In this document: positions 1,505 to 51,152 of the stretch, in pieces | Numbering within the stretch: position 1 is the stretch's first letter | Layout: each line of letters opens with the position of its first letter | Assembly (NCBI RefSeq): GCF_000186865.1 | Contig: NW_008705565.1 | Span: forward strand, 2,544,709 to 2,608,708 | DNA from: Aureococcus anophagefferens | Lineage: Eukaryota > Sar > Pelagophyceae > Pelagomonadales > Pelagomonadaceae | DNA: 64,000 bases | Reading direction: 5' to 3' | Notes under the pieces: generated by a model | What the model saw: only the letters and a program-made list of their open reading frames with translations | Databases searched by the model: none | Told to the model about the DNA's origin: nothing | Translations under genes and position numbers: made by a program

Positions 1505-3142
1505 TCAGTCGACGGTCGCCGAGTTGGCGACGTAGCGCTCGACGGACTCCTTCTTGCGCGTGGACCGGCGCGGGCCGCCGTCGTTCTCGGACGACGGGTC
1601 CGCGGCGTCGTCGCGGCCCCGGGGCTTGCGGGCCCGGGGCCCCGGCGCGGCGGCGCGCGGCGGCTTATTGGCGTCGGGCGCCGGCGCGCCGCGCGACGAC
1701 TTGCCGCGGCGCGGCGCCGGCGCGCCGTCGCGCGGCGCGGCGGCGCCGCGCTTCTTCTCGGGCGAGGCCTTGGCGCGGGGCCGCGCGGGCGCGCCCGGCG
1801 CGGCCGCCGGCGCCTCCTCCTTGGCCTTGGGCGCGCCGCGGCGCGCCGCCGGCGCGGGCGGCGGCGGCGGCGCGTCCGCGCCGCGCGCCGCGTCCCAGGG
1901 CGGCGCGCGCCGCGGCAGGAAGTCCCAGTCGAACAAGTTGTCGTCGCGGAACTTCTCGCGCTTGTAGACGTCGAGGAAGAGCTTGCGCAGGTAGGCGTAG
2001 TCGGGCCGGTCGTCGAAGCGCAGGCTCCGGCAGTACTCGAAGTAGCGGCGAAACTCGGGCGCGAAGCCGTCGCAGAGCGTCGCCGCCGACGTCTCCATTT
2101 TGCGCTTCTTGATGCGCTCGTACTTCTTCGCCTTCGTGTCCGCCTTGAGGCCCTGCCAGGGCAGGGACCCCCGCGCCAAATACATGAGCACGTAGCCCAG
2201 CGACTCGAGGTCGTCGCGGCGCGAGGGCTCGATGCCGACGTGCGTGTTGATCGACGCGTAGCGCGCGGTGCCCGTGAGGTTCTTGTTCTCGCGGTAGGGG
2301 ATGTGCTCGTGGCTCCGCGGGTCCCGGTACTTCTTCGCGAGCCCGAAGTCGATGGCGTGGACGACGCGCGACGCGACGGCGCCGCGGCCGACGAGGAAGT
2401 TGTCGGGCTTGACGTCGCGGTGCACCTGGGCAGGAAAAGGGTGATTCAACGTCGCTTCAACGTGCGTGTTCCGCGCGCGCGCGTTCCGGAAAAAGCATCC
2501 ACGCTTCGAGACCGTTCCGAGAGATGATCGCTCGTCCAAAAATCAGCCGAAACGAGTGGAAAACGGCCGAGATATGAGGCTTTGAAGTTGGGAATTTCGC
2601 TCTCTTTTCCTGCCCTGCGGTGCACGAAGTGGCGCACGTGGACGGCCTCGAGCCGCTCGAGGAGCTGGCCCGCGACGCTCAGGACCTGGGAGGGGTTCGC
2701 TCCAAAAAAGGGGCGGGGGGGGCGTCGACGGGGGGCGCGGGCGCCGCGCGGTCTTGAGCGTGAACCGGCGGCCGCACTGGTTGAAGAGGTCCTCGAGCGA
2801 CGGGCCGAGCCTACGGAGCACGGCTGACCCCCCCCCCCGCCGTGGACGCCCCCGGGGGACGCGGGCCCCGCGCAGCTCCATGACCATGGCGTTGTGGTCG
2901 CCCTCGACGCCGCACCAGCGGACCGTCGGGACGCCCGCCGAGCCCGCGAGCGCGCGGTAGACGCGGCTCTCGTAGAGGAGCTGCGGGTGGCGCGTCTCCA
3001 CGGCCTCGAGCTTGACGGCGACCTCCTCCCCGCCCTCGTTGACGCCGGAGAAGATCTCTCCGAAGGAGCCGGAGCCGATTTTCTTGTGGAGCGTGAAGCT
3101 CTGCACGCGCTTCACCGGGGGGCACGCGCGCTTCTCGGACAT
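1505..3142 (-). CDS. casein kinase 1 family Ser/Thr kinase
   Basis: Four exons (3142-2874, 2810-2750, 2685-2626, 2425-1505) join into 436 residues that follow CK1 without interruption. The glycine loop IGSGSFGE is at 22-29, the catalytic lysine at 44, HRDVKPDN at 132-139 and DFG at 156-158. [10 protein letters not shown] and [14 protein letters not shown] are CK1 signatures. The tail after about residue 300 is basic, Pro/Ala-rich and low-complexity. CK1 enzymes phosphorylate pre-primed or acidic sites in trafficking, clock and signalling proteins. Introns 1 and 2 (63 and 64 nt) both begin GCGCGG and end AG, and only these joins restore MELLGPS and LKTVLSVAGQ. Intron 3 (2426-2625) is an introner. 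The start was chosen because the N-terminus matches family length. Confidence 0.93.
2426..2617 (+). mobile_element. introner element, family A (copy in CK1)
   Basis: A 192-bp element beginning CTGGGCAGGAAAAG and ending CTTTTCCTGCCCTG (inverted ends), flanked by 8-bp direct repeats CGGTGCAC at 2418-2425 and 2618-2625. It forms a 200-nt intron of the minus-strand kinase gene. On the sense strand GT is supplied by the duplicated target (GTGCACCG) and AG by the element end (GCCCAG), so splicing restores the original exon exactly ([11 protein letters not shown]). There is no internal coding capacity, so it is non-autonomous. Structure and target duplication match the introners described for Aureococcus. 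Confidence 0.93.
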
Positions 3143-3309
3143 GGTCGAGCGGGAGGCGCGGGGCGGGGAGCGCAAGCGCGGCGCCTCACGATGCCATGCG
3201 CGCGCGCCCCGCGGCCGGCGGGCAGCGTGTGTCGACGAGGTTCGGCTTCCTGGCCGTGCGGAGTGAGTTTTGCCTCTCGTTTGCGCGAGGATTCGGCTAA
3301 AGTTCGCCT

Positions 3310-5004
3310 TCACGGCAGGCGGGGCATCATGGCCGCCGCGCGCGCGAGGAGCGCGCCGACGTGCGGCGCGTCGCCCCGGCCCGTGTCGACGCGGAAGCAC
3401 GCGGACGCGAGCGCCGCGTCGAGGAGGCCCTCGAGCGTCGACGCGGCGTCGGCGTCGTCCGCGGCCCGGAGGAGCGCGGCGACGGCGCCGGCGAGGAACG
3501 CGTCGCCGGCGCCGACGGAGTCGACGGTCCCCTCGACGGCGAAGGCCCGGCGGAACGCGGCCTTGCCCGCGAGTCCCTCGAGGCGCCGCGGGCACGCGCG
3601 GCCAAGCACCCGGCGGAGGCGGGCCTCGTCGCCCGCGGCGCCGAAGCAGCCCCGGGGCCCGAGCGTCACGAGGACGAGGCCCGCGCCGCGGTCGAGAATC
3701 TTCCGCGCGACGTTCTCCACCGCGGCGTCGTCGAGGACCGTCTCGAGCGAGTCGTCGAGGCCGTGCGCTGCGAGCAGCGCCGCCTTCAGCCCCGCGCAGG
3801 CCGCGGCCTCGTCCAAATTGCCGTGGAAGAGGCCCACGGCGCCGTAGGCGTCCCGCGCGTCGCCGAGCGGGAGCGCCGCGTCGTCCGAGGCCTCGTTGAC
3901 GTCGAGGCACACGCAGCAGCCCCGCGCGTTGGCCTCGGTCGCGAGGGCCCGCAGCCGCGCGCCGCGCAGGGCCGGGCCCATGACGTGGGGGTAGCCTATT
4001 GTCGCCACGTCGTACGCACCCAGCGCGGCCGCGTCGAGCTCGAGTCTCGCGTTCCAGCCCTGCGCGCAGTAGACCGCGCGCTTGCCGTCGCTCCGGTACA
4101 CGGGCAGGCACGCGGCGCCCGTCGCGCAGGCCGCGTCGCGCGCCACGCGGGCCGTGCCGACGCCCGCGGTCCGCCACGCGCCGACCAAGTAGTCGCCGAA
4201 GCCGTCCGCTCCGAGCGTCGTGTGCGCGTCCGCGGCCAGCCCCCCCCCGGCCCCGAGCAGCGCGAGCTGCGCCGCGACGTTGGACACGCTGCCCCCGGGC
4301 CGCAGCTCGAAGGCGTCGACGGCCGCGTAGCCCTCGCGGCTCGGCAGGTCGTCGCTGCCTCGAAGGACGACGTCGACGCACGCGTGGCCGCAGCAGAGCA
4401 CGCGCCGCGTCTCCTCGCGCGCGCCGCCGCGGAAGGCCTCGGCGACGACGCGCGCCGCGAGGGCGCCCATGGCCTCTTCGGCGACGTCCGACGTGTCGAC
4501 GAACGCGTGCGGCCCGGGAGGCCGGTACGCCTGCCGCGCGGCCTCCGCGTCCGCGAGCGACGACCCGGCGCTCGCGAGCTCCGCGGCGTCGCGCCCCGCG
4601 TTGCGCGCCGCCTTGCGCGCCCGGAGCACGGCGGGCGCCGCCGTGACCCAGGCGAGGCCGAAGGCGTCGGCGCCGCAGCGGTTCGCGAGCGTTTGGAGCC
4701 ACGCCGGGTCCTTCGTGTGCGTCGAGAACGGCGCGACGAGGACGACGTCGTTGCCGGCCTTGCAGTTCTGCTCGCAGGCGCGGAAGCAGGTCTCGTAGGC
4801 CAGGGCCTTGAGCGTGCCCGCGTAGAAGTCGCAGTCGTGGGCGTCGGGCGCCTCGCCGCCGGCGACGAGGGCCGCGTTGGCCAGGGGCCACTCGAGCGTG
4901 TCCTTGTCGACGAGGCAGGCGCCGCCGAGCTCCTTGCACGCGAGCGCCGCGAGCGTCGTCTTGCCGCCGCAAGGGCTGCCGGCGACGACGAGGAGCCGAG
5001 GCAT
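3310..5004 (-). CDS. P-loop kinase fused to PfkB-family sugar kinase
   Basis: One uninterrupted 564-residue ORF with two kinase modules. Residues 1-170 carry a Walker A near the N-terminus (GSPCGGKTT) and resemble small P-loop nucleotide or metabolite kinases. From about residue 200 ([19 protein letters not shown]) to the end is a PfkB/ribokinase fold with [10 protein letters not shown] and the anion-hole motif DSVGAGDAF. PfkB enzymes phosphorylate sugars or nucleosides with ATP. The P-loop half may act on the same or the next intermediate, but the substrate cannot be read from sequence. Only about 80 bp separate its start from the 3' part of the upstream kinase-PH gene, so read-through or a larger fusion cannot be excluded. 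Confidence 0.85.
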
Positions 5005-5082
5005 CGAGCTGTTTTTGCGAGAGCTCTCACACCATGCGACGCGCCGACGATTGCAAGGTGCAGTAGACCTTGCAGTGCCTCC

Positions 5083-8000
5083 TTAGCGCCGCGGACCGGC
5101 GCCGCGGCCTTGTCGCGGCGGACGCGGTCGAGGGCGACGGCGAGCGCGCGGAGCCAGGTGCCCTTGGCCGCCGCGGACGGCGCCTCGACGTGGAGCAGGC
5201 AGTCGCCGCCGTCCGCGACGAGCTCGAAGGCGAACTTCTCCGCGTCGCGGTGCGCCGCGGCGCGCGCGAGCGCCGCGGCGCCGCGCGCGAGGTCCCGCTT
5301 CGTGGCGGCCTTGGCCGGCCACGTGTCGAAGCTCAGGCGCTCGCGGTCGCCGTCGCGGTCGTCGCCGCCGCCCGCGCAGGCGCGGACGCGGTCGACGGCC
5401 TCGAGGTCGACGTGCTTCTCCTTGCGCGCCTCGCCGTCGTGGCCCTCCCAGCGGAGCTCCGCGAGGTCGTGCGACAGGTAGAAGAAGCGCTCGTGGCGGG
5501 GCGGCGCCTGGTTCGCCACGTAGGCGCGCTGCGTCTTCAGCAAGAAGCCGCCGCGCGCGCAGGCCTCGACGGCGGCCCAGCCCGCCTCCTCGTCGTCGAG
5601 GTCGACGGCGCCGTCCGCGCCGGCGACCGCGGCCCGGTCGGCGCCGCGCGCGGCCGCGTGCGCGTCCGCCGCGCGGCCGTCGAGCGGCGCGCCGTCCGGC
5701 GCGCGCGCGGCGCCGCGGTCGCCGAGGCGGCCCGCGCACCAGCTCAGCCCCGCGGCCCAGTCGTCGGCGACGGAGGCCGGCGCGTCCGCGGGGAGCACGA
5801 GGTCGTGGACCTCGCCCGCGGCCTCCCGCACGCGCACGACGCGCGACCGCCTCGCGCGCGCGACGGCGAGGTCGCCCGCGCCGGCGACGTGCGCGAGGTC
5901 CTCCGCGCGGAGCTGGAGGTCCTTGAAGGAGCGCCGCCGCCGCACGTTGTCGCGCGCGAGGGCCGCGCGCGGCGGCAGCGACGGCGCCTCCTCGACGACG
6001 GCGACGCCGGCGACCTGGGCAGGAAAAGAGAGATTCAAGTTCGCTTCAACATGAGTGTTCCGCGCGCGCGCGTTCCGGAGATAGCATCCACGCTTCGAGA
6101 GCGCTCCGAGAGATGATCGCTCGTCCAAAAATCAGCCAAAACGAGTGGAAAACGGCCGAGATAGGAGCCTTTGAAGTTGGGAATGTCGCTCTCTTTTGCT
6201 GCCCTGCCGGCGACGCGCGCGAGGCTCACGGCCGTGCGGTGGTCGCTGTACTTGCCCAGCGTCCGCGCGAGGCGCTGGTCGAAGAAGGGCGCGGCGAAGC
6301 CTACGGAGCGCGTCGGTGACGGTCTTTCGTAAAATTTCCCGGTCGACATCTCTCGAAACTCGTCGCGGCCGCGGGACGCCGGGCGACGCCGAGGCGCCGC
6401 AGGTCGTCGGCGAGGAACGCGCGCTTCGCCTTGACGCGCCCCGACGCGGCGACTTTGCCGCAGCGCGTGCCCGCCTGGAGCCGGCCGACGCGCTGCTTCG
6501 CCGCCTCCAGCGCCGACGCCGCGGCGGCGTTCCGCGCGATGGCCGCCCGCAGGCCCTCGGCGACGGCCGCGACGGCCGGCCGGTCCGCGGGCCGCGCCTC
6601 GAAGCACCGGCGCCGCCAGAACGCGAGCGCCGGCGGGCTGCAGGCCCAGGGCGCGGGCCGCTTGCCCGAGAGCACGGCGTGCGCCACGGCCGTCGCGCGC
6701 CAGCTCGGCGGCCAGGGCGTCTCGCCGCGCGCGGACAGCTCGTGGAGCACGCAGCCGAGCGCGTAGGCGTCCGACGCCTCCGAGTACTCGCGGCGCTCGA
6801 GCGACTCCGGCGCCTCCCAGCGCACGGGGCCGAGCTCCTGCGTCGTGAACCCCTTGGACGCCGCCGCGGCCCGGAGCCGCGCGAGCCCGAAGTCGCAGAC
6901 GACCGCCCGCAACTCGCCGTCGACGCGGTGCACGAGGAGGTTCCGGCACGCGAGGTCCCGGTGCACGATGCGCTCCGCGTGGAGCGCCGCGACGCCGCGC
7001 GCCGCGCCGAGCGCCAACACCAACAAATCGTCGCGCGTGAGCGCGCCGCCCGGCAGGAGCGACGCCCGCAGCGCCGACGACGGCCGCGCGCGGAGGAGCG
7101 CCTTCACGGAGCAGNNNNNNNNNNNNNNNNNNNNNNNNNNNNNNNNNNNNNNNNNNNNNNNNNNNNNNNNNNNNNNNNNNNNNNNNNNNNNNNNNNNNNN
7201 NNNNNNNNNNNNNNNNNNNNNNNNNNNNNNNNNNNNNNNNNNNNNNNNNNNNNNNNNNNNNNNNNNNNNNNNNNNNNNNNNNNNNNNNNNNNNNNNNNNN
7301 NNNNNNNNNNNNNNNNNNNNNNNNNNNNNNNNNNNNNNNNNNNNNNNNNNNNNNNNCAACTTCAAAGGCTCCTATCTCGGCCGTTTTCCACTCGTTTCGG
7401 CTGATTTTTGGACGAGCGATCATCTCTTGGAACGGTCTCGAAGCGTGGATGCTTTTTCCAGAACGGGCGCGCGCGGAACACTCATGTTGAAGCGACGTTG
7501 AATCACCCTTGTCCTGCCCTGACGATGGCGACCTGGGGCTCCTTGTACGGGTCCTCCCGCTCGATGACGACGCCGAGGAACTCGACGACGTGCGGGCCGG
7601 ACGCGCGCGAGAGGAGCGCGACCTCGCTCGACACGTCCTCGCGGCTCAGGAACAGCTTCACGGCCACGCGCCCGCCGCGGAACTCGCCGCGCCAGACCTC
7701 CCCGAACGACCCCCGGCCGACGCGGCCCAATAGCCGCACGGCGCGCTTGTCGATGAGCAGGCTCGCGGGGATCGCGAGCTCGTCCATGCACCCGAGGCTC
7801 GGCCGCACGCCGAGGCGGCCCGTCGGCGTCGCCCAGCCGCCCTCGAAGGACGCGCGCGCGCTCGCCGGCGACTCCGCGTCGTAGGCGCCCCCCGGCGAGC
7901 CCGACTCCGCGTCGTAGACGTCCTTGGACTCCTCGCGCGAGAAGAGCGCGCGCCCGTCGACGTAGGACGCGCCCGCCGACGCGAGCCCGTCGTAGACGGG

Positions 8001-8282: not shown

Positions 8283-8477
8283 GGCGCGGCGCGGCGCGTC
8301 GGCCGCGGCGGCCCTCTAGACGATCATCGCGAACGGCGGGGGCTGCCCGCCCATGATCATCACATCCATCGAGCAGGAGCCAACGTAGAGGATCCTCGCC
8401 GGGGGTCGACTTCCGCGGCCGCCAGGCGGGGGCTCGGGCGACGTCTCGGGCGCCGCGACACGGTCCTTAGGACCCCC

Positions 8478-10177: not shown

Positions 10178-10433
10178 GGCGGGGGCTGCCCCCGTCGGCA
10201 AGACAACCGCTTCCGGGTTACCCGTCGCGGACGTCGTTTCGGTGGTTGCGTGGGAAAGGCAAACACGTTGCATTTTTTTTGGTGAACTCCCAGGCTACTC
10301 GCGTAGAGCGGGAACCGCGCACGACCACAGGAGCACCCTCGCCCGCTCCAGGCCACCCCCCGAGCTCGACTCAGGCGCAACATCGACGCCGGGCTTATCG
10401 TCCAACGCGCGCGCCTCGCGACGCCGGCCGCGG

Positions 10434-13932: not shown

Positions 13933-13996
13933 TGCTCGCCCGCTCTTGTTCATAACACCCCCTTGTACATTCAGATAGATCTTCGCGAGGCGGAAC

Positions 13997-17006: not shown

Positions 17007-17613
17007 ATGCGCGGAATCATGACGGCGGTGTTGTTGGCGTCGGCGCAGGCCTGGACGCCGGCGTCGAAGGTGTCGGGCTCGGGGCTGTCGTGCGGGCCGG
17101 CGTCCGGGGCCGCGCGCGCCGCCGCCGGAGAGCGCGCGCGCTACGGCAACATCGCGCCGCCGCGCGCGCACGGCCGCCGTCCGCAGGATGTCGAGGAAGC
17201 GGTGCACGGCGCTCCAGGGCATGAAGGACCTCGGGTCCGAGGGCGACTTCGACAAGGCGGTCAAGGCGCGCGCGCCGCGTCCCCGCCGGTCGCCCCCCGC
17301 GCGCGCCGCGGCCCCGACGCCCGCGCGCCCGCAGGACGCCGGCGACTCGCTCATGGTCGTCGACTTCGCGACGACGTGGTGCGGCCCGTGCAAGGTCATG
17401 GAGCCGAAGATGAACGCCATGAGCGAGGAGTACACCGACGCCATCTTCTACAAAGTCATCGGCGACAGCAGCGCCGAGGCGAGCAGCCTCATGAAGCGGG
17501 AAGGCGTGCGGGCCGTGCCCTCCTTCCACTTTTGGAAAAATGGCGAGAAGGTCGACGTCGTCAACGGCGCCAACATCGAGGCCGTGACGTCCAACGTACA
17601 AAAGTACCTCTGA
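17007..17613 (+). CDS. thioredoxin, probably plastid-targeted
   Basis: Proposed exons 17007-17131, 17187-17265 and 17335-17613 (160 residues). The start MRGIMTAVLLASAQAWTP is a signal peptide with an aromatic after the cleavage site, the stramenopile plastid pattern. The mature protein has the active site WCGPCK, a cis-Pro loop AVPSFHF and ends VTSNVQKYL. The second intron (69 nt, GCGCGC...GCAG) is well supported because it joins FDKAVK to DAGDSLMVVDF as in other thioredoxins. If retained it would add 23 in-frame residues. The first intron is tentative: a frame change is certain, but the GC donor at 17132 is one of several choices. Thioredoxins reduce disulphides on target enzymes. Confidence 0.82.
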
Positions 17614-19408: not shown

Positions 19409-22400
19409 ATGAACACGGACGAGATCCAGGGCGCGCTCGTGGCGACGCTGTCGCCGGACGTGACGGTCCGGCGCCAGGCCGAGGCCTACTTGGACAACTG
19501 CCGGCGGACGGCGGGGTTCCCCGTGCTCCTGCTCCAGCTGGTGCGTCTCTCGCGCGGCGCGCGGACGACGATTTCGAACCCGCGACCCCCTTTTTGTTCG
19601 CAGGTGCAGCAGCACTGCGGCGCGGCGCCGACGGCGCAGTCGCCCGTGCTCCGGTCGTCGGCGGCGGTCTACTTCAAGAATCTGGTGAAGAAGGGCTGGG
19701 ACGTGGACCCCGAGAGCAAGGAGACGCCCGTCGCGGCCGGCGACCGCGACGCCATCAAGAGCCACATGGTCACGCTCGTCTGCGCGTGCGGCAAGTTCGG
19801 GGACGTGAAGCAGCAGCTGTCGCAGGCGCTGACGCTCATCGCGTCCACGGACTTCCCGGGCAAGTGGCCCAACCTCTTGCCGGAGATCGTCGCGCGCTTC
19901 GCCGACGGCGACGCCGCGACGGTCCAGGGCATGCTGCTGACGTCGAACTCGATCCTCAAGCGCTTCCGCTACGCCTTCAAGTCCGACGCGCTCTACGCGG
20001 AGCTCAAGTACGCGCTCGACACGCTCGCGGCGCCGCTGACGCGGCTCTTCGGGACGCTGGGCGAGGAGCTGCGCGCCGCCGCGGGCGACGCGGCGCGGTC
20101 CGCGGTCGCGCTCGAGTCGCTGCGCCTCGCGTGCCGCGTCTTCTTCTCGCTGAACTGGCAGGACCTGCCCGAGTTCTTCGAGGACCACATGGCCCCCTGG
20201 ATGGGCGCCTTCCAGGAGTTCCTCGCCTACGAGGCGCCGGGCGCGGCCGCCGACGACGAGGACGACGACGAGGGCCCCGTGGAGCGGCTCCAGGCCGCCG
20301 TCGTCGAGAACGGGGCGGGAAAAGAGTGATTCAAGTTCGCTTCAACGTGAGTGTGCCGCGCGCGCGCGTTCCGGAAACAGCATCCACGCTTCGAGACCGT
20401 TCCGAGAGATGATCGCTCGTCCAAAAATCAGCCGAAACGAGTGGTACACGGCCGAGATCGGAGCCTTTGAAGTTGGGAATGTCGCACTCTTTTCCCGCCC
20501 AGGTCGAGAACGCGAGCCTCTACGCGCACAAGTACGAGGAGGAGTTCCAGCCCCACCTGCCCCAGTTCGTGTCCGGCATCTGGCAGCGGCTCATGAAGAC
20601 GTCGCTCTTCCCGAAGCACGACCGGCTGGCCGCGACGTCGATGCGGTTCTTGGCCGAGGTCGTCGGGCAGCAGATGCACGCGGCGCTCTTCGCGGACGAG
20701 TCGACGCTGCGCCAGGTCGTCGAGGCCATCGTCATCCCGAACATGACGCTGCGCGATTCCGACGTGGAACTCTTCGAGGACAACGCGGTCGAGTACATCT
20801 CGCGGGATCTCGAGTCCGCGGACAGCGAGACGCGGCGCCGCGGCGCGCGCGACCTCGTGCACGCCATGTGCAAGCACCACGACGCGACCACCACCAAAAT
20901 CTGCGGCGAGCACGTCGCGGCCATGCTCGGCCGCTACGGCGCGAGCCCCGGCACGGAGTGGCGCGCGAAGGACGCGGCGCTCCACCTCGTCGTGTCGCTC
21001 GCCGTCCGCGCGGAGTCGTCCGCGCGCGGCGTGTCGAAGATGAGCGACCAGCTCGACATCCTCGAGATCTACAGCGCCCACGTCGCGCCGGAGCTCGGCG
21101 GCGCGACGGCGACGCACGGCGTGGTTCTGGCGGACTGCGTGCAGTTCGCGTGCACGTTCCGGAACCAGATCCCCGGCGACGAGCTATTACGTCTACTCCC
21201 GCTGCTCGGGGGCCACCTGGGCCACGGCGACGTCGTCGTCCAGTCCTACGCGGCCCACTGCCTCGAGCGCGTGCTCGCCGTGCCCGGCTGTGTGGAATTC
21301 GACCAGTGAGCTGGGACGTCGGGGCCAAACTTTGAAATTCTCTAGCTCGGTCAAATCGACGTCGATTCGGCTGATTTTTGGACGAATCGATTGCTCTCAT
21401 CGAGTTCTCGAAGCACAGCGGAAGTGATCGTGTCAAAACATTCGAATACGCTCACATTGAAGTCGGGTTGAAGATTCGAATGCCACGCAGGTGCCCGGGA
21501 AGATCCACCGGCCGCAGCTCGCGCCGCTGCTGCCCGCGCTGTTCCAGGCGTTGTTCGCGGTCATCGACGGCGCGCTGGCCAAGGGCGGCGACGCGCCCTG
21601 GGAGAACGAGTACGTCATGAAGGCCGTCATGCGCTTGCTGGTCGTGGGCCAGGCCGACGTCGTGCCCCACGCGGCCGTCGTGACGGAGAAGCTCTGCGCG
21701 TCGCTCGGCCGCGTCTGCGCGAACCCGCGGAACCCGAAGTTCAACCACTACCTCTTCGAGAGCTTGGCCGTGCTCGTGCGCGTCTGCTGCGAGGCGAACC
21801 GGGACGCGACGGCGACCTTCGAGGGCCTGCTCTTCCCGCCGTTCCAGTCCGTGCTCCAGATGGACGTCGTGGAGTTCGCGCCCTACGTCTTCCAGATATT
21901 GGCGCTCCTGCTGGGCTACCGCGCGCCGCGGTCGGGTCTGGGGGACGCCTACGCGGCGCTCCTGCCGCCGCTGCTGCACCCGTCGCTCTGGGAGCGCCGG
22001 GGCAACGTGCCCGCGCTGGCGGCGCTGCTCGAGGCGTATCTGGTCGCGGGGCCGGACCAGATCCTCGCCGCGGGGCAGCTCGAGCCCATGCTCGGCGTCT
22101 TCCAGAAGCTGCTGGCGTCCAAGGCGTCCGAGGGCCACGCCTTTGGGTTATTGAAGTCGCTGGTGGTGCACGTGCCGCAAGCGAATTTGGACGGCTACGT
22201 GCCGACGGTGCTGCAACTGCTGCTCACGCGGCTCCAGCAGAACCGGGACCGGTTGAGCTACTGCCACAACCTCCTCGCCTTCCTCGGGCTGCTCGCGGGC
22301 AAGCACGGCGCGCCGCAGCTCGTCGCGAAGCTCGACGCGCAGCAGCCCGGGCTCTTGCCGCAGCTGGTGGTCCACGTGCTCGCGCCGCACGTGCTCGGCG

Positions 22401-31250: not shown

Positions 31251-31490
31251 GGTGTGCTGAGGCGAGGAACGGCGCGGCGGCGCTTCTTTTTCGCGCGCGG
31301 ACGGCGGCGGCGGCGGCGGCGGCGGCGGCGCGGACCGGATCGGCGGCGGCTCACCGGCGCGCGGCGCACGACGCGGACGTCGACGACGGCGGTGGTGGCG
31401 CGAGGCGATTGCCCGATTGGCCGAGAGCGAGCTGTGGCAATGGACCGGCCTGAGAGCGCTTGAGAGTCCCCCGCCACCGCGCCGCTCGCC

Positions 31491-32705
31491 ATGAAGTCCT
31501 ACGCGCGCATGCAGCACGAGGCCGCCGAGGGCGGGAAGCGGCTCCCCGAGAGCGCGGGCTACGGCGGGGCGGCGGTCCGCGAGCCGCCGCGGAAGCTGGC
31601 GCGCGTGCAGATCGAGTGCGCCATGGACGAGCCCGACGCGCGCACGGACCTGGCGTCCATGGGCCTCGACAGCCAGAAGCTCAGGGAATTGCGGTCCCAG
31701 TACGGCCACGAGGACGCCGGCGGCCTCGCGCGTTTGGGCGACATCACGCCGAGCCACCGGAAACGTTCTATGACGCGGTGCGTGCCGCACCTCGACTGCG
31801 GCGCGACGGAGGGCTCGACCGACGGCGCGCGGCTCTTCTGCCTCGACTTCGCCCGGGGCCGCTGCCCCGACGGCCCGGCGTGCACGCACCGCCACGAGAT
31901 CCCGCGGCGCGACGACGACGACGACGGGGAAGTGCTGAACGCGACGTACGACGTCTTCGGACGAAAGAGATCGCTGCTCCTCAGCGCCTGGGAGCGGCAC
32001 CACGGCAAGAAGGAGGAGGGCGCAATGGAGACGGGCAACTGCACGCTCCACGTCTCCGGCCTCCGCGCGCCGCCCAAGAAGCGCACGGAGCTCTGCGGCG
32101 GCGCGGGCGCGAGGTCGCGGTCCGTCGCGGGCGACCTCGACGCGGCCGTGCGCAAGGCCTTCGGCGCCTTTGGGGAGGTCGTCGAGACGCGCGTCATCCT
32201 CGACGGCACGAAGGGCCACTGGGCGCTCGTCACCTACGCCGCGCGCGCCGCCGCGGAATTCGCGAAGGAGGCGATGACGGGCCAGGGCCTCCGCGTCGAC
32301 GGCGGCGAGATCATCCAGGTGCGCTGGGCCAAGGACCAGCAGGCCACGTCGAACGCCGGGGGCTACTGCCACGCGCCCCAGGCCAAGCCCGTGCCCCGCC
32401 TCCCGCCGGCTCAGACCGCGCGGCCCGCGCCCGCGCCGCGACCGGCGCCGCCGCTGCCGCCGGGCTGGGCCGCGACGCTCGACGCGGCGTCGGGCAAACA
32501 CTACTACCACCACGCGGCGTCGGGCAAAGTCCAGTGGGACGCGCCCGCCGCGCCGGCCGAGGAGCCGGACGCGCTGCCGCCGGGCTGGGCGCGCGTCGTC
32601 GACGAGGCCAACGGCTACGCCTACTTCTACCACGCGGCGACGCAGCGGACGACCTGGGACCGGCCCAAGGCCGACGACGACGACGCGGCGCGGGGGGGGA
32701 CGTAA
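31491..32705 (+). CDS. Cwc2-like splicing factor with two C-terminal WW domains
   Basis: 404 residues. Residues 90-175 form the Cwc2/RBM22 torus and CCCH finger: RCVPHLDCG, FCLDFARGRCPDGPACTHRH, and YDVFGRKRSLLLSAW. An RRM follows (CTLHVSGLRAP, KGHWALVTYAARAAAEFAKE). Cwc2 belongs to the Prp19 complex and contacts the U6 snRNA and intron in the catalytic spliceosome. The C-terminus adds two WW domains (LPPGWAATLDAASGKHYYHH and LPPGWARVVDEANGYAYFYH), which usually bind proline-rich proteins; I know of no such extension in yeast Cwc2 or human RBM22. The start at MKSYARMQHEAAEG fits the family. Confidence 0.87.
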   Translation: MKSYARMQHEAAEGGKRLPESAGYGGAAVREPPRKLARVQIECAMDEPDARTDLASMGLDSQKLRELRSQYGHEDAGGLARLGDITPSHRKRSMTRCVPHLDCGATEGSTDGARLFCLDFARGRCPDGPACTHRHEIPRRDDDDDGEVLNATYDVFGRKRSLLLSAWERHHGKKEEGAMETGNCTLHVSGLRAPPKKRTELCGGAGARSRSVAGDLDAAVRKAFGAFGEVVETRVILDGTKGHWALVTYAARAAAEFAKEAMTGQGLRVDGGEIIQVRWAKDQQATSNAGGYCHAPQAKPVPRLPPAQTARPAPAPRPAPPLPPGWAATLDAASGKHYYHHAASGKVQWDAPAAPAEEPDALPPGWARVVDEANGYAYFYHAATQRTTWDRPKADDDDAARGGT

Positions 32706-32828
32706 CATGAGGAAGCGGCGAGACGCGTCGAGATCCGCGGGGTCGCGGAGGGCCTTGGTTGAACACATGTTTGACTGCAAGTTCAGCGAATTGCAAGGCT
32801 GCCCCGCTCTACGCCCTCGCGCCACACG

Positions 32829-34260
32829 ATGAGCAACTACGACGGACAGGGCTGGCAAGGCGGCGGCTATGGCAAGGGCGGCGGCTATGGAGGCGGCAAG
32901 GGAAGCGGCAAGGGCGGCAAGGGCTACGGCCGCGGTGGTGGCGACTACGGCGGTGGCCGCGGCGGCGGCGGTGGCTTCGGCGGCGGCGGCGGCGGCTTCG
33001 GCGGCGGCCGCGGCGGCCGCGGCGGCGACTCCATGCCCGCGGCGGCGGCGGACCCGTCCGAGGTCGCGGACTTCGACCGCGCCTGGGCGTCGGCGCGGCC
33101 GCTGGACGAGGGCCACGCGGCAAGCTGGCACGGCCTCGGCGCGGCGCTCGTCGGCTCCGCGGCGCTCGCCGCGGCCCCGAAGGCGCCCGTGCTCTGCGCC
33201 GACGGCGAGACGCTCTACAACCGCGTCGAGGTCCGCGAGACCGGCGACGAGCTGCTCTTTATGTGCAACGGCGTGCCCGACTACGCGCCGCGGAAGATCA
33301 GCGGCGGCGTCGCCGTCGAGAGCGACTGGCAGGGCCTCTGCCGCAGCGGGCGGCTGGACCGGAACCCGAACAAGATCGTCGCCCAGGACTACCGCTTCCG
33401 CGTGCCCGTCGTGCCCGGCGCGCCGCTGGAGACGCCGATCACGGCGACGCCGATGGGGTGCGTCACGCTCCGCCCGGAACCTCCTCGAAGAAGCCGCTCG
33501 ATCCCCGCGCAGGCCCATCGGCATCGCGCTGAACGGCGTCCCGATCTACCACGGCGCGTTGCGGCGAACGAGGTTCCTCTGTGTGCGATAAAGCGAAGTG
33601 GATGTACTCTCAGGCGACATGCAGTACACGAACCCCAAGCTCCCGGAGGGCATGTTCGCGAACCAGGACGAGTCCTTCGACCAATGCTGCGGCCACCCGG
33701 ACGGCCGGGGCCAGTAGCGCGTTCCCGCGGCGCCTCCGTTTCGCGCGTCTCATCGCCGCGACCCCTTTCCCTCCCGTCGCAGCCACTACCACCAGTACCC
33801 GCGCTGCGTCGTCGGGGCGTCCGCGCTGGGCCTCGACGCGCCCGACGCGCTCATCGCGGCGCTCAAGGACGACGCGGACCTCACGGCGGCGCCGCTCGCG
33901 AAGGCGCTCGCCGAGCAGATCGCGCGCGGCGAACCGTCCAAGTGCATCGGCGTCGCCTTCGACGGCCACCCCATCATGGGCCCGATCGGCGTCTTCGGCG
34001 GCGAGGTCCGGCTCGCGCGGCCGTCCTTCGTCGGCCCGCTCGACGTGTCCGCGGGCGACCCCGTCTTCGTCGCGGGCAGCGGCGATCTGGACGCCTGCAA
34101 CGGCGCGACGGGCGCCGACGGCGTCTGGCGCTACTACGCGACGGTGCGCCTCGAGGGCGACGACGTCGTCCCCGCGTTCCCCTATGTCATCGGCGCGTAC
34201 CGGTCCCAGCCCGCGGTCACGAATTTCCCGCAGCACCAGCGGTCCAAGGTCGCGCCCTAG
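32829..34260 (+). CDS. YHYH-domain protein with glycine-rich N-terminus
   Basis: Exons 32829-33457, 33513-33553, 33614-33716 and 33783-34260 give 416 residues. Residues 1-66 are Gly/Tyr/Lys-rich (GGYGKGGGYGGGK), RGG-like. The rest is a YHYH domain: MGPIGIALNGVPIYHGDMQY, DQCCGHPDGRGQYHYHQYPR and CIGVAFDGHPIMGPIG. Intron 1 uses GT (GTGCGT, 55 nt). Introns 2 and 3 (60 and 66 nt) use GCGCGT donors, and only those joins rebuild YHGDMQY and GQYHYHQY. YHYH proteins are mostly secreted or periplasmic in bacteria and of unknown function; no signal peptide is visible here, so an intracellular role is possible. Confidence 0.88.
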
Positions 34261-34297
34261 GCCGCCCGGTGTTCCTAACGCGGGCGCTTACTGGCGC

Positions 34298-35156: not shown

Positions 35157-36025
35157 ATGTGCCGTGCCCCCACCCTCGCGCCGCAGCGCGACCCGCCGGC
35201 GTCGAAGAGCGCCGTCTGCGCCGTCGCCGGCGTGCTGCACTTCGGCGCTTTCCTCCAGGCGACGAAGTGCTTTGGCATCGCATTGGGCAACATCTTCGGC
35301 TTCCACGACACGCCCCTGGCGCCGGGCAGCGTCCTTGCAGCCACGACTATGTTCGAGAGCTTTTGAAACGAAAACGTCGTCACCGACGCACTTGGTAGGC
35401 GCCGGGCCTCGAGGAGATCGCGCGCCTGAGCGCCTGCTGCGTCGTGTCGTACTGCTGGGACCTCTTCGCCATCGGCGCGCTCGGCGTCGTGCCCCTGTCG
35501 CGCTGCCGGTCCGGCGGCGACATCGTCGGGCACCACGTGCCCGTGCTCGTGCTCATGATCCCCTTCGCGGCGCCCTACCTCGCGGGCTGGGACTGGGAGC
35601 CGGCGGTGGCGCTGCCGGACCGCCACACGTGGCTCCTCTTCATCGACGGCCTCGCCTTCATGAGCTCGCTCAACGAGTCGATCATGTGCTGGCAGTCCGT
35701 CGGGGCGACGCGGCGACTCTTCCGGTCGCGGGCCGTCGTGTCCTTCGAGCTCGCCTACAAGGTGCTCATCTTCACGCTCATGGCCGCGGGCTGCGCGCTC
35801 GGCTGCGTCGCCGTCGACGCGAAGCTCTTCCTCCTCGTCGGCCGGTCGCCGGCCGCGATGGCGACGTCGCCGATCGTCGTCCGGACCGTCGCCTACCTCA
35901 CCTTCGTCGCGTCGAAATACCCGTCCATGGGCAAGCGCGCCGTCCGCAAGCTCCAGGCCCACCTCGAGCGCGGCGACGGCGCGCCGCCGCTCTCCTGGGA
36001 CGACGTGCCCGCGAAGCGGGCCTAG
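35157..36025 (+). CDS. TLC-domain-like membrane protein
   Basis: Two exons (35157-35318 and 35399-36025, 262 residues) joined as DTPLAPGLEEIARLS. Several hydrophobic helices are visible, including CWDLFAIGALGVVPLS, VPVLVLMIPFAAPYLAGW, VLIFTLMAAGCALGCVAV and a final TVAYLTFVASKYP. The GGDIVGHHVPVLVLM block with paired histidines resembles the TRAM/LAG1/CLN8 (TLC) signature. TLC proteins handle sphingolipids or act in lipid sensing, in the ER. The 80-nt intron has no good GT donor at the family-consistent point and is flanked by a 9-bp direct repeat (see separate entry). A GT donor at 35331 would add four in-frame residues. Confidence 0.68.
35319..35398 (+). other. 80-nt GC-AG intron flanked by a 9-bp direct repeat
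   Basis: GCGCCGGGC occurs at 35319-35327 and again at 35399-35407. The 72 bases between the first 8 and the second copy (starting CAGCGTCC, ending CTTGGTAG) are less GC-rich than the exons. Layout equals that of the introners (target duplication supplies GC, insert supplies AG) but the insert has no inverted ends and no match to families A or B. Confidence 0.5.
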
Positions 36026-39461: not shown

Positions 39462-39551
39462 GCTTGTCGTTCCTACTAGGTGTTCTATGCTTGCTTTGGT
39501 ATTCCGCGGGGGGAGGGGGCGCGCCGCGGGCGGCGGGCCCCGCGCGGCCGC

Positions 39552-44672: not shown

Positions 44673-44735
44673 GCGGCGCCGATTCGTCGTGTCGCCGCCT
44701 CCGCCTCCCCCAGCTTCGAGCCCCCAGCACCACCC

Positions 44736-45617: not shown

Positions 45618-45689
45618 CGTGAATGAGCTCGCCACAAGAGCTGCTCTTTGCCTTCAACCAACGAGCCTTTTAGCCCTCCCCGCGGACGC

Positions 45690-46685: not shown

Positions 46686-46863
46686 GGCGCGAGCGACGAT
46701 GCGGGCGCGGCGGCCGCGTCAGGTCTCGGCGCGCACGTCCACGCCGTGCGGCGTCGTCGATCGACGCAAGGCGTTTTTTTTACCACAGCAAGTCAAGCAA
46801 CGCGACACGTTGAAGACCCTCTACGCGCGCCGCCGCATCGCTGCGTCGCGCGGCCAACACACG

Positions 46864-47490
46864 ATGCGACTGCTCCGGCTCGGTGTCGACATCGCTCTGC
46901 GCGGCGGCTGCTTCGCGTCGCTCGTCGTGGCCTACTCCTACGCCGAGGTCGCCGGCGGCGCCCACCTGCCGGCGCACGTGGCCCCGACGCTCGCGCTCTT
47001 CGGGTGCGCGGCCCTGGGCGCCGTCTGCGACGGCGCGCGCGTCGCCTGGACGGCGCTGTGCCTCGGCGCCGTCGGCGCGCTGCGCGCGTACCGCGCGGCC
47101 GCGGATCGCGGCGACCACGCGTCGCAGCGCGCGGCGGAGCTCGCGAAGCGGGCGGCGGCGCGCCTCGACGCCCTCGAGTTCGCGGCCTTCGTCGCCTTCG
47201 CCGCGGCCTACTGCCTCGCGCCGCGGCGGCGGCCCGCCGGCGGCGCCGCGGCCGCGCCGACGTTCGGGCCCTGGGAGGCCGAGGTCCGGCGGCTCCTGGT
47301 CGCGCGGCGCGCGACGGAGGACCTCCACCGCGTCGACGGCTGGCTCGCGGACCACAGAGGCCGCGAGGCCGACCTCCTGCGCGACCTCGAAAGGCGGTAC
47401 GCGGCGGACGCGGACGGCCGCCCCGCGGACTCGCCGGGCCTCCGCGCCGTCGCCGCGACGGCGACGGGGCTCCGGGACCTCTCGCTCTAA
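46864..47490 (+). CDS. unidentified small multi-pass membrane protein
   Basis: 208 residues from MRLLRLGVDIALRGGCF; longer upstream starts add Arg-rich sequence. Three or four hydrophobic stretches occur in the first 130 residues (CFASLVVAYSYAEVAG, VAPTLALFGCAALGAVCD, LDALEFAAFVAFAAAYCLA). A soluble helical tail follows with repeated Arg/Glu (RRLLVARRATEDLHRVDGWL). It faces away from the previous gene with 178 bp between starts. No family was recognised. Confidence 0.55.
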   Translation: MRLLRLGVDIALRGGCFASLVVAYSYAEVAGGAHLPAHVAPTLALFGCAALGAVCDGARVAWTALCLGAVGALRAYRAAADRGDHASQRAAELAKRAAARLDALEFAAFVAFAAAYCLAPRRRPAGGAAAAPTFGPWEAEVRRLLVARRATEDLHRVDGWLADHRGREADLLRDLERRYAADADGRPADSPGLRAVAATATGLRDLSL

Positions 47491-47564
47491 GAGTCGTCTT
47501 TTCCTCCACCGTCGGTGCTCTTAGGTCGCGCGCGCGCGCGGCCCCCGCCGCCGCCGCGGCCTCC

Positions 47565-47982
47565 CTAGTAGAGGTCGTCGTACTCCTCGTAGTACTCCTC
47601 GTCCTCGCCCTCCTCGGAGACGAGCCCCCAGATGATGAGGCCGATGACGAAGATCATGAGGAAGACGCCGACCCAAAACCTGCGCGCCGCGCCGTCGGCC
47701 GGCCGCGCGCGAAAAGCCCCCGGGCGTTCGACGCCGCGCGACGCGCTGCGGCGTGAGCCCCTCCGACGAGTCGTCCCAGTCGCGCGCGCCGCCGCCGCGG
47801 CTCTCCCAGCCGCGCGGCATCTCCGCGAGCTTCGCCTTCGTGCGCGCGAGCTCGTCCTGGAAGGACTGCTGCCGGTGGCGCAGGCGGCTCGACTCGTCCT
47901 CGTACTCGGGCATGGCCTGCTCCGTCGGCCCGTCGTCGTAGCCGACGTCGTCCTCGTCGATGTCCAGCTCCTTGCCGGACAT
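47565..47982 (-). CDS. small tail-anchored membrane protein (GC-AG intron)
   Basis: Exons 47982-47747 and 47679-47565 give 116 residues: an acidic start (MSGKELDIDEDDVGYDD), a helix (SSRLRHRQQSFQDELARTKA), then FWVGVFLMIFVIGLIIWGLV as a single membrane helix and an acidic Tyr-rich tail (EEYYEEYDDLY). The 67-nt intron starts GCGCGTCGCG and ends GCGCAG. Without it the frame runs into Arg/His-rich nonsense; with it TPQFWVGVF is continuous. The membrane helix near the C-terminus suggests tail anchoring. Function is unknown. Confidence 0.68.
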
Positions 47983-48156
47983 GGTGTCGGAAGCGGCGCG
48001 GCGCTGCGGAGCGGCGCGCGCGCGGCCGAGCACTTGTAGCTGTGCTTTGCCGCAACGGGCTGTTCGATCGGCGAGCGGCGCAGGCAGCCTGCAGGCCTCG
48101 GTGTCGGAGAGCTCTCCCGGCCGCCGCCGCAGCTGCAGCGACTCCTCCCAGGCGAC

Positions 48157-49284
48157 TTACACATCGAAGCCCATGCCCGCGGCGCGGAGCCGGTCGACGA
48201 GGACCGTGCCCAGCGCCGCCGCGGGCGTCCAGACGCCGCCGCCGGCGCGCGGCGGCGGCGCGCCGTCCGCGAGCGCGAGCGCGGCCTCGGAGACCATCTT
48301 CGCCGTCTCGTCGTAGCCCGGGTCGCCGCCGGAGACGGACGCGAGCAGATCGTTCGTCGCCGCGTCGACGACGTCCAGCCGGAAGGAGCTCGCGGCCCGC
48401 GTCGCCGCGTCGGGCCCCGCGCCCGGCGCGAAGAGGCGGCCGCGGTCGACCAATTTTTGCAGCGCGTCCGGCGGCACCGCCGCGTTCTTCGCCATCTTCG
48501 ACGCCGCGGCCTCGCTGGGCGCGACGGCGTACTCGTCGTAGGAGAAGCCGGCGCCGTAGCCGAGGAGCTCGCCGGACCGGCGCACGACGCGCGTGTTGAT
48601 GGGCGCCATCCCGAACGGCGCGAGCCAATAGGGCCGCGCGGCACTCGGCGCGACGGCCGCGACGACGTCGCCGTTGACGACGGCCGGGTCGCCGCCCAGG
48701 AGGCACGCGTTTGCGACGTCGCCGGGGAAGTTCTTGGCCATGAGGATGCCCGTCGCGATGGTCCCGCCGGACATGGCGCCCTTCATCGTCGCGTGGCCCT
48801 GCAGGGCCGCGCCGGGCCCGGCCTTCCGCGTCGCCAGGAGGACGCCGAGGTCGCTGGGCACGCTGTCGAAGCCGCAGTTGGGCACGATGACGGCGCCGGA
48901 GTCCGCGGCGGCGGCGTGGTCGCGGTCGATGATCCGCCGGACCCACGGCACCTCGCCGTCGATGTCGACGTAGTGCGCGCCGGCCCGCGCGCACGCGGCG
49001 ACGACGGCGTCGGAGTAGAGCGAGAAGGGGCCGGCCGTCGAGAGCACGACGCGCGCGGCGGACGCGAGCGTCTCGGCGTCGGCGGGCGCGTCGCTCGGCG
49101 ACGCGACGACGGTCTCCTGCGGCGGCGCGGGCGCGCCGGCGAGCGACGCGGCCAACGTCTCGAGCTTGGCTCGGCTCCGGCCCGCGACGGCCCAGCGCAG
49201 GCCGGGCGTCTTCGACAGGTAGGCCGCGACGAGCGACCCCGTGAAGCCCGTGGCGCCGTAGACGATGATGTCGAGCTTGCCCAT
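48157..49284 (-). CDS. saccharopine-dehydrogenase-like oxidoreductase
   Basis: 375 residues from MGKLDIIVYGATGFTGSLVA, where GATGFTG is the NAD(P)-binding turn. The family pattern continues with RWAVAGRSRAKLETLAASL, RVVLSTAGPFSLYSDAVV, GAHYVDIDGEVPWVRRIID, VPNCGFDSVPSDLGV and MSGGTIATGI, matching SCCPDH and trans-acting enoyl-reductase-type proteins. These sit on membranes or lipid droplets and probably reduce a lipid; they are not lysine-pathway enzymes. The start is 189 bp from the divergent KH-Smr gene. Confidence 0.88.
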   Translation of the reverse strand: MGKLDIIVYGATGFTGSLVAAYLSKTPGLRWAVAGRSRAKLETLAASLAGAPAPPQETVVASPSDAPADAETLASAARVVLSTAGPFSLYSDAVVAACARAGAHYVDIDGEVPWVRRIIDRDHAAAADSGAVIVPNCGFDSVPSDLGVLLATRKAGPGAALQGHATMKGAMSGGTIATGILMAKNFPGDVANACLLGGDPAVVNGDVVAAVAPSAARPYWLAPFGMAPINTRVVRRSGELLGYGAGFSYDEYAVAPSEAAASKMAKNAAVPPDALQKLVDRGRLFAPGAGPDAATRAASSFRLDVVDAATNDLLASVSGGDPGYDETAKMVSEAALALADGAPPPRAGGGVWTPAAALGTVLVDRLRAAGMGFDV

Positions 49285-49322
49285 CGTTCTCGCCACGCTT
49301 CGGCGAAGTTTACCCTCGATGT

Positions 49323-49470
49323 TGAACTTTGTAATTCGGGCTGCCCGCGGCGACCACTCGAGCCGCCGCAGCCGCCGCCGCGAGCGCCGCAGCCGCGAAC
49401 TGAGCTTTGTAATTCCGGCAGCCCGCGGCGACCACCCGAGCCGCCGCCGCCGCGCGCCGCGAGCACCGCA
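49323..49470 (+). repeat. imperfect tandem duplication in a 5' region
   Basis: Two roughly 75-bp units. Each begins CTTTGTAATTC, continues with a CCCGCGGCGACCAC block and ends in a Cgc-rich GCCGCAGCC stretch. They lie between the divergent SCCPDH-like and KH-Smr genes, immediately before the KH-Smr ATG, so probably in its 5' UTR or promoter. Confidence 0.8.
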
Positions 49471-49473
49471 GCC

Positions 49474-50190
49474 ATGGGCATCTGCTTCGGCATCCACAGC
49501 CCGGAGCCGGCGGCGGACGCCGCCGCCGCGAGCGATGCGCCGGCGCACCTGGAGAGCGAGGAGATCGTCGCCGTCATCGGCCACGGCGGGTCCACCATAA
49601 AAAAGATCGAGCACGACAGCGGCTGCAAAATCCACATCGATCGCGGGAGCGGGTCCATCGCCTACGACGGCTCCGACACCGCCGTCGCCGCGGCAAAGAA
49701 GGCCGTGGCCGTCGCCGTGGCCAAGGCGCACGAGATGCCCGATTACACCGGGCCGGAAGGCGGCAAGCAGCGCGCCGAGGCCTTCAAGCTCTCCAAGAAG
49801 CGGGACGGCTTCAAGCACGACGCCAAGGCGGCCTACGACCGCGGCGACAAGGCCGCGGCGCACGCGGCGAGCGTCAAGGGCAAGGACCTCGACGCCGAGG
49901 TCGCGAGGCTCCACGCGAGGGCCGCGGCGACGATCTTCGCGTACCGCAACAAGGGCCACCCGGAGACGTTCATCGACCTCCACGGGCTGCTCGTCGACGA
50001 GGCCCTGCGGTTCCTGACGCAGCGGCTGGACGCCCTGAAGCAGGGCGACCTCGAGGTCGTCACGGGCGCGGGCCACCACTCGGAGAACCACGTCGCGAAG
50101 ATCAAGCCCGCGGCCATCGCGCTCTTCAAGGAGCGCCGGCTGAAGTTCTCCGAAATCAACGCGGGCGACGTCAAGGTCCACCTCAAGTAA
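49474..50190 (+). CDS. KH - DUF1771 - Smr protein
   Basis: 238 residues. MGICFGIHS at the start fits N-myristoylation with a nearby cysteine for palmitoylation. A KH domain follows (EEIVAVIGHGGSTIKKIEHD, where GHGGSTI replaces the usual GxxG loop), then a DUF1771-like helical region (RAEAFKLSKKRDGFKHDAKA), then an Smr domain with the nuclease motifs DLHGLLVDEAL and TGAGHHS. Smr domains cut RNA, often on stalled ribosomes (compare Cue2/NONU-1). A KH domain would add RNA binding. A membrane-linked Smr nuclease is unusual, and the acylation is inference. Confidence 0.85.
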   Translation: MGICFGIHSPEPAADAAAASDAPAHLESEEIVAVIGHGGSTIKKIEHDSGCKIHIDRGSGSIAYDGSDTAVAAAKKAVAVAVAKAHEMPDYTGPEGGKQRAEAFKLSKKRDGFKHDAKAAYDRGDKAAAHAASVKGKDLDAEVARLHARAAATIFAYRNKGHPETFIDLHGLLVDEALRFLTQRLDALKQGDLEVVTGAGHHSENHVAKIKPAAIALFKERRLKFSEINAGDVKVHLK

Positions 50191-50200
50191 GGATACCTTC

Positions 50201-51152
50201 TTAGCTGTACCAGAGCTCCACGGGGACGGTGACGAGGCTGCAGGGCGGCACCCAGAACTTGGCCTTGCTCCAGCGCGGGCCGCCCTTCCAGGACCCCGCG
50301 GCGCCGCGGCTCGCGCCGACGCCCTCCTTGGGCTTGCCGACGGCGTTGGTCTTCATCTTCCCGTTGAGGTCCTTGTCGTGGAGCACGAGGACGCCGTAGT
50401 TGCCGATGGACTCCTCGAGCCGCACGGTCCAGGTCACGTTGTTCTTGTCGACGATGGGCTTCGTGTCCACGAGGAACGCGCCGCCGTCCTCGTCCCAGTC
50501 CTGCGGTGCGGGGAAGGGTAAAACGACGAAACGGGGGCGGACGCCGCCGGCGCGCGTCCTTGTCCTCGTTCCACTCGTCGCCGTCGTCGTGGAGCCAGAG
50601 CTTGGCGCCGCCGTCGTCGTTCTTGAAGTCGGACGCGACGATTTTTATCATGGACGCGAGGCACGGCGTCGGGGCCCGCGTCGGCCGCCGCGTGGGCACG
50701 GGGACGGGCACGTGCGTCGCGTTCGTGGCGTTGCTCAGCTTCCAGGGCACGAAGGCGGCCGCCGGCGCCTCGGTCGCCGCCGCGGCGTCGCGCCGCAGCG
50801 ACTCGACCGTCACGGGCTGCCCGCCCCGCGTCGCCTCCGTCCGTCGGAGCCGCGTCTCCCACACGAACAGCGCGCCGCAGGCGACGAGGAACAGGAACCA
50901 GGCGAAGACGCGGCAGGCCCAGCGGCCGGCGCAGCGCGCGCTCCGCCGCTCGCAGCGCGCCGGCGCGAGGCAGCAGAGGTAGCGGCAGAGGCGGTCGCAG
51001 CAGGATCGTTTGCGTGTTGGTCTTTCGGCGACGACGGCGGGCAGCACCTTGGTCCGAGGGTGGTCCACAGGTTCGACGAGGGCCTCCTCCACGACTTCGC
51101 AGTCCTCGGCGTCCACGTAGCGGACCACGGCGGCCTTCTCGGGTGACGACAT
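50201..51152 (-). CDS. unidentified type II membrane protein
   Basis: Exons 51152-50556 and 50500-50201 give 298 residues. The cytosolic N-terminus is acidic, then Cys/Arg-rich (SCCDRLCRYLCCLAPARCER), perhaps palmitoylated. One signal-anchor helix (VFAWFLFLVACGALFVWET) follows, then a lumenal region with N-glycosylation sequons (NATNATH), a Pro/Thr stalk, and a beta-rich domain (MIKIVASDFKNDDGGAKLWL, TWTVRLEESIGNYGVLVLH) resembling a secreted C2-like or lectin-like fold. The 55-nt intron has donor GCGCGCC and acceptor GCAG, joining EDKDDWDEDGGAF. No family was recognised. Confidence 0.65.

Follow-up and report, generated by a model that had tools for sequence, protein, structure and literature searches.

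A 64,000-nucleotide (nt) stretch of the Aureococcus anophagefferens genome (contig NW_008705565.1, positions 2,544,709 to 2,608,708, with a GC content of 72%; hereafter the window) carries short introns that begin with GC and end with AG, together with copies of two families of mobile introns, or introners, here named family A and family 2. Across both families, the 68 clear donors among 89 copies comprise 41 GC, 26 GT, 1 GA and 0 GG. Our sequence analysis confirms the occurrence of GC-AG introns in the window, and we consider it probable that they are ordinary U2-type introns with a tolerant donor choice, fed by base composition and by introners that make G[C/T] targets into donors. That GC-AG introns abound in this species is already known from Iwata and Gotoh 2011 (PMC3033335), who put their share at 39.6% in a genome with 69.5% GC, and the phenomenon is stronger in another alga, Emiliania huxleyi. 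The new element here is the donor count obtained from target duplications, and no priority is claimed for a target-duplication origin in Aureococcus.

Introner families and the donors they use

The assembly searched comprises 49.05 Mb in 86 contigs. Introners of Aureococcus are reportedly the subject of a study by Huff et al. 2016. In the window, the following copies were delimited:

2426..2625, minus strand: family A introner, 200 nt, GT-AG, third intron of the CK1-like kinase gene; target GTGCACCGC duplicated; core GGGCAGGAAAAG...CTTTTCCTGCCC; terminal stem of 12 base pairs (bp)
6015..6214, minus strand: family A introner, GT donor; duplicated target GTCGCCGGC
20303..20502, plus strand: family A introner in the Cse1 gene, GT donor; duplicated target GTCGAGAACG; core in reverse orientation
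6301..6389, minus strand: family 2 introner, 89 nt, GC-AG; donor copy GCGTCGCC, which differs from the exon copy at one position
35319..35398, plus strand: family 2 introner, 80 nt, GC-AG; duplicated target GCGCCGGGC, determined by eye where the automatic end finder did not resolve it, and kept outside the counts

Family A elements measure about 200 nt and read, in gene sense, as an 8-bp target, a CA dinucleotide (rarely another one), the core, AG and again the 8-bp target. Removal of the copy at 2426..2625 yields exactly the empty site. When this copy was used as a query against the genome, 40 of 2082 first-look candidates were scored, one of them being the query itself, and the flanks of the 39 further copies, all with at least 97% identity, were inspected. 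A duplication is present in 32 of these 39 copies and unclear in 7; one of the 32 starts ambiguously with CC, and the other 31 have 22 GC and 9 GT donors. All 32 duplicated copies lie in sense in coding DNA and are stop-free after removal, and in each case the restored frame outscores both shifted joins under a coding model trained on this genome. Many near-identical copies, target duplication, terminal inverted repeats, sense insertion and frame-neutral removal thus come together in family A, as they do in introners.

A second set of family A copies, not picked for similarity, comprises 22 entries, four of them diverged copies fixed by myosin homology and the rest met by chance in the window or in other stretches retrieved; as one entry is the copy at locus L083, 21 are distinct. 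Their ends are clear in 15 cases, with 6 GC and 9 GT donors, a share near the published 39.6%. The difference in GC share between the near-identical copies (22/31) and these other ones (6/15) has p = 0.058, and GC may give way to GT as copies age, or the difference may be due to chance. At locus L026, a family A copy with a GC donor has GT in the exon copy of its target. As a separate observation, family A cores occur in both orientations (L013, L020, L048 and window 20313-20500), with AG still preceding the duplication at the gene-sense 3' end; perhaps there are two family A subfamilies with AG at opposite ends.

Family 2 elements are mostly 88-89 nt long and end in TAG. The genome search listed 41 matches and scored 40 of 390 candidates, and the sample retained consists of 29 copies, 20 from genome regions and 9 from stretches already examined. 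Two of them have no resolvable ends and five an unclear duplication, while the 22 clear ones have 13 GC donors, 8 GT donors and 1 GA donor. Removal restores the frame in 21 of the 22, the exception being L124, which holds two insertions and a stop. The single GA case, an 88-nt introner at L110 (C6:1379232-1379550), has the donor copy GAACGAGT with one mismatch and a restored frame. Here too, many copies, target duplication, sense insertion and frame-neutral removal are those of introners. Two introner copies, at L025 near 6300 (GC) and at L035 (GT), were judged by eye and stand outside the counts; owing to unclear margins or borders, neither L045 nor the second gap of L044 was counted. Protein homology favours GC donors in the introners at L031, L032, L049 and L050.

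These counts can be set against the composition of coding sequence, where the dinucleotide shares are 0.154 for GC, 0.042 for GT, 0.092 for GG and 0.070 for GA. GC makes up 61% of the GC and GT introner donors together (41/67; interval 49-73%) as against 79% in coding sequence (p = 0.0014), which corresponds to a composition-corrected acceptance of GC of about 0.43 of the GT rate. Without the 15 clear donors of the second family A set, the remaining 53 donors give a GC share of 67% and an acceptance of 0.56. If GG and GA were accepted at the GT rate, about 57 and 44 donors, respectively, would be expected, where 0 and 1 are observed. At the far end of the duplication, purine-C occurs in 18 of 68 cases and no mirrored rule appears, so that the G[C/T] start is not accounted for by a symmetric preference at the target.

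Beyond the first two bases, GC donors match canonical U1 at 1.88 of the other seven positions as against a background of 1.47 (P = 0.005; 1.94 and P = 0.0036 for the first 53 donors alone), with a G at +5 in 20/41 and at -1 in 18/41. Such extra matches are the pattern expected from a normal U1 acting with low stringency. GT donors display no enrichment (1.23 versus 1.32, P = 0.71), and positions +3 to +6 are nearly free in introner donors. Because of these last two features, an unusually relaxed donor recognition is supported.

Short introns and the GCG motif

The original prediction listed ten short introns in the window and read from them that GC-AG appears to be the main class, with a donor G[T/C]GCG. 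All ten were reproduced with the same ends, lengths (55-69 nt) and donors, seven being GC...AG and three GT...AG:

2811..2873, minus strand: GC-AG intron, 63 nt, CK1-like kinase gene; GCGCGG...GTAG; exact in rule-free alignment with four reference proteins
2686..2749, minus strand: GC-AG intron, 64 nt, CK1-like kinase gene; equivalent one-base slide in the rule-free run with four references, GC-AG being the reading with an AG end
17266..17334, plus strand: GC-AG intron, 69 nt, thioredoxin-like gene; alignment with AG acceptor, small margin
19541..19603, plus strand: GT-AG intron, 63 nt, Cse1 gene; IBN_N profile positions 1-69 matched if spliced, 25-69 if retained
33458..33512, plus strand: GT-AG intron, 55 nt, YHYH-domain gene; rule-free alignment, Pfam gain
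33554..33613, plus strand: GC-AG intron, 60 nt, YHYH-domain gene; rule-free alignment, Pfam gain
33717..33782, plus strand: GC-AG intron, 66 nt, YHYH-domain gene; rule-free alignment without equivalent slide, Pfam gain
47680..47746, minus strand: GC-AG intron, 67 nt, gene without recognised family; open-frame continuity only
50501..50555, minus strand: GC-AG intron, 55 nt, DUF2141 gene; DUF2141 score raised from 56.6 to 59.9 bits by splicing
58424..58488, minus strand: GT-AG intron, 65 nt, ubiquitin-like start of a DRC1-like gene; UBXL score gain

Junctions were examined with a purpose-written protein-to-DNA spliced aligner able to run without any donor or acceptor rule. In this mode it recovers five of the ten introns (four GC-AG and one GT-AG), exactly or with an equivalent one-base slide, and a sixth, in the thioredoxin-like gene, is recovered when an AG acceptor is demanded. 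Furthermore, sliding the borders while keeping the spliced product offers no alternative GY-AG reading in any of the ten. The window thus contains introns with a GC donor, an AG acceptor and a junction fixed by the protein product. Nine of the ten have a protein alignment or a family score behind them, and the one at 47680 has open-frame continuity. As to the main class, seven out of ten introns are too few to prove it on their own; the introners, 41/68 of which start with GC, support GC-AG as a major class, though in the family A set not picked for similarity the figure is 6/15, near the published 39.6%.

The strength of the individual junctions varies. For the CK1-like gene, the rule-free alignment returns the two short introns plus the 200-nt GT-AG intron, and reference P0029 scores 1083 rule-free, 1069 with GC only and 1047 with GT-AG only. 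A likeness of the 3' end of 2811-2873 to the 88-nt introner family is visible by eye only, and the automatic check gave no clear duplication. For the YHYH gene, reference P0121 gives three introns, two of them by a one-base slide, and scores 1672 rule-free versus 1630 with GT-AG only; the distant reference P0125 supports two of the three, and the Pfam score rises from 36.5 bits for the last exon alone to 66.2 bits for the spliced product. The thioredoxin-like junction scores 207 with AG required versus 196 without an intron, while alignment without a rule shifts it two bases further on, at 213, 6 points more, and a second reference stops short of it. Splicing raises the IBN_N score of Cse1 from 25.5 to 28.6 bits, and the UBXL score at 58424 from 15.8 to 22.2 bits, still under the cut-off of 22.7.

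The motif is genuine within the group of older short introns. GCG at +3 to +5 is found in 10/10 of these introns versus 8% of GC/GT sites in coding sequence, but in only 4 of the 68 introner donors, and it is not general. The list from which it was drawn lacked the mobile introns of the window (about 200 nt and 77-89 nt), where GCG is no rule. Comparison of the first 8 bases of each of the ten introns with the downstream exon gives 1-5 matches out of 8, which is no clear duplication, though old copies would have lost it. An HSP110 gene has one further short intron with the donor GCGCGC, making 8 of 11 short introns GC; there, reference SSE1 scores 146 for GC-AG, tying with the rule-free best, versus 115 for GT, and reference HSP105 prefers another placement by 2 points. 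Searches with kinesin, CCT, HSP70 and myosin yielded few ordinary short introns, and the introns suspected at L034, L037 and L038 are in fact continuous frames.

The motif does not extend to loci of 45-51% GC, where seven intron donors comprise six GT and one GC. Five of these are in CCT2, a locus of 48% GC (GTCACT, GTGGGT, GTAATA, GTGGAA and GCATTG), and the others are at L041 (GTTTCC) and L044 (GTAAGA). Contigs C22, C24, C41 and C42 of assembly G000 (L001, L002, L040, L041, L044, L045) have 45-58% GC as against 72% in the window, and such low-GC stretches may be a region of the same nucleus that is rich in introns, or they may be contamination. If they belong to this nucleus, one machinery handles both kinds of introns and the donor follows local composition.

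Tolerant recognition as the probable scheme, and its alternatives

The scheme that we consider probable, that of ordinary U2-type introns with tolerant donor choice, would work as follows. Many introns of this genome would arise by insertion of introners, short elements with terminal repeats: the element would bring its own AG acceptor, while the donor would come from the 8-bp target, in its upstream copy after duplication. Splicing would be of the standard U2 type with an unusual tolerance at +2 to +6, asking little of +3 to +6 and accepting GC slightly less than half as easily as GT. As coding DNA has about 72% GC and targets starting with GC far outnumber those starting with GT, tolerance of GC is enough to make it a leading donor class. 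The older introns of 55-69 nt in GC-rich genes would share this tolerance and add a preference for G[C/T]GCG. The sequence shows the intron borders, the duplications, the sense orientation, the restored frames and the donor counts; we infer that each copy is spliced at the border defined by its duplication, and that recognition passes through a normal U1 of low stringency.

A more far-reaching version of this scheme is offered tentatively. In it, introner insertion would act as a natural random-donor experiment. A donor may need hardly more than a G with C or T after it, with GC at about 0.43 of the GT rate, GA in 1/68 and GG in 0/68, and with weak help from U1 at GC sites only; the choice of donor would depend chiefly on the acceptor, the branch site or the length of the intron, and the GC-AG excess of GC-rich algae would then come from composition plus intron-making transposons, GC perhaps yielding to GT with age.

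Several observations weigh against the tolerant scheme. GC is used below what composition predicts (41/67, p = 0.0014), GT predominates (9/15) in the family A set gathered without regard to similarity, and the GCG of the older introns (10/10) is unexplained by introner insertion. At L032 the lead of GC over other classes is only 2-6 points and the rule-free placement is 6 points higher; at L048 the protein alignment prefers a GT site by 6 points where the duplication gives GC; and L033 ties between GT and GC. Moreover, all intron borders are read from sequence, all sampled introners are genic, so that a G[C/T] preference of the transposase is not fully separable from selection by splicing, and this assembly yields no confirmation of a canonical U1. 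Indeed, U1 was not found with the Rfam model RF00003 (run twice; 41 of 370 candidates scored), with ATACTTACCTG or with a loop pattern, although its absence is not thereby shown. Two matches to ATACTTACCTG were rejected, having no Rfam U1 match and a fold no better than shuffles, as were six loop-pattern matches with no Rfam match.

It is nevertheless unlikely that the recogniser itself is altered, that is, that U1 RNA, its modification, or U1C, LUC7 or PRP8 has changed so that GCGCG and GTGCG pair well. GCG in all ten older introns against 8% in the background, GCGCGC in the HSP110 intron and the near-free +3 to +6 of introners would all fit such a change, and RNA modification or U1 proteins were proposed by the authors of the 2011 study (PMC3033335). 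Yet the same study gives the putative U1 of A. anophagefferens a canonical 5' end, AUACUUACCUG, likewise canonical in Micromonas pusilla, and the U6 of this genome has a canonical ACAGAGA box; a canonical U6 and the U1 5' end ACUUACCUG are what marks U2-type machinery. The altered U1 pairing suggested in the original prediction is therefore not supported by the evidence gathered here, all the more as GC donors carry extra matches to canonical U1. The occurrence of GCG in only 4/68 introner donors and the varied donors of the five CCT2 introns at 48% GC speak against an altered recogniser as well. In passing, L004 (C25:154867-155268) has a PRP8-like match within one open frame of 2389 residues.

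Hairpins of terminal repeats, rather than donor sequence, could define introner splice sites, as in the hairpin introns of Amoebophrya. The family A copy at 2426..2625 does have a 12-bp stem closing the intron beside both ends, and several copies keep complementarity despite changed bases. However, transposition by itself would already lead one to expect complementary terminal repeats, the arms are mismatched in several family A copies, and donors are still G[C/T] in 67/68. The whole fold of the window copy is no better than shuffles (z = -0.56), and none of eight other introns folded (six of the ten older ones and two family 2 copies) has a special fold, so that we regard this explanation as very improbable. 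We give hardly any credence to a misreading of many apparent GC donors, whose true sites would be nearby GT. The GC calls were indeed made from sequence, and the margins of the thioredoxin-like gene, L032 and L048 are small or point elsewhere; but models restricted to GT lose 36 points in CK1 (P0029) and 42 points in YHYH and break conserved motifs, and public A. anophagefferens models lose conserved exons beside GC donors.

Known systems, public gene models and neighbouring genes

Homology assigns our DNA to A. anophagefferens or a very close strain. Iwata and Gotoh, who studied this species, found 22.2% GC-AG introns in Micromonas pusilla, drew the link to GC content and termed the origin of the abundance an enigma; in the available text of their paper, GC donors are not connected with mobile introns and their target duplications (PMC3033335). 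Mobile introns with sequence-defined borders turn this enigma into a measurable question, namely the freedom of the spliceosome with each donor. In Emiliania huxleyi, a haptophyte with a GC-AG majority, GC donors make up 56% of 241 curated junctions, thirteen of them checked by reverse-transcription PCR, and were attributed to high GC content, automatic gene models being biased to GT; introners are not discussed in the available text (PMC4028052). A study in PNAS 2022 (PMC9860276) described introners in which the element carries AG and the duplicated target provides the 5' splice site, with 0-50% GC and 0-40% GA donors according to the family. The families described here share this arrangement: they take their donor from the target and do not alter the frame, whereas the Aureococcus sp. 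example of that paper brings both of its splice sites and lengthens the transcript by 12 bp. A. anophagefferens is also listed among species with many non-canonical introns (PMC7789003). In the same source, the hairpin introns of Amoebophrya are mobile, with terminal hairpins and non-canonical borders, and U1 went undetected there as here; their borders are highly variable, whereas those of our families are GY-AG with one GA exception.

Public A. anophagefferens models appear, from sequence comparison, to be wrong at exons of the CK1-like and YHYH genes (window 1505-3142 and 31464-34262). The CK1 product is identical to the A. anophagefferens record P0004 over the alignable part of the first exon and almost identical at the start of the last exon, and the YHYH product matches the records P0122 and P0123. 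P0004 jumps from DHNAM to VHRDVKP, and P0122 and P0123 jump from TPMG to HYHQYP; the skipped exons adjoin GC donors, and the residues concerned are present in the related proteins P0013 and P0026 (CK1) and P0121 (YHYH). Conserved exons beside GC donors thus go missing from the public gene models of this bloom-forming alga, and protein sets of GC-rich algae need a GC-aware gene finder.

P0122 and P0123 also fuse the YHYH gene with the neighbouring Torus-domain gene. The latter, at window 31464-32702, combines Torus, RRM and WW domains in one protein, which we take to be a Cwc2/RBM22-like splicing factor with WW domains. De novo learning of a donor motif from coding periodicity was abandoned: a free motif settled in wrong registers, and fixed GC-rich motifs, GG and GA controls included, returned many false introns, so that the counts were discarded and the coding model was kept for frame tests and background site frequencies. 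At L027, about 4000-6300, tandem protein repeats of some 50 residues were a source of repeated false introns in that de novo model.

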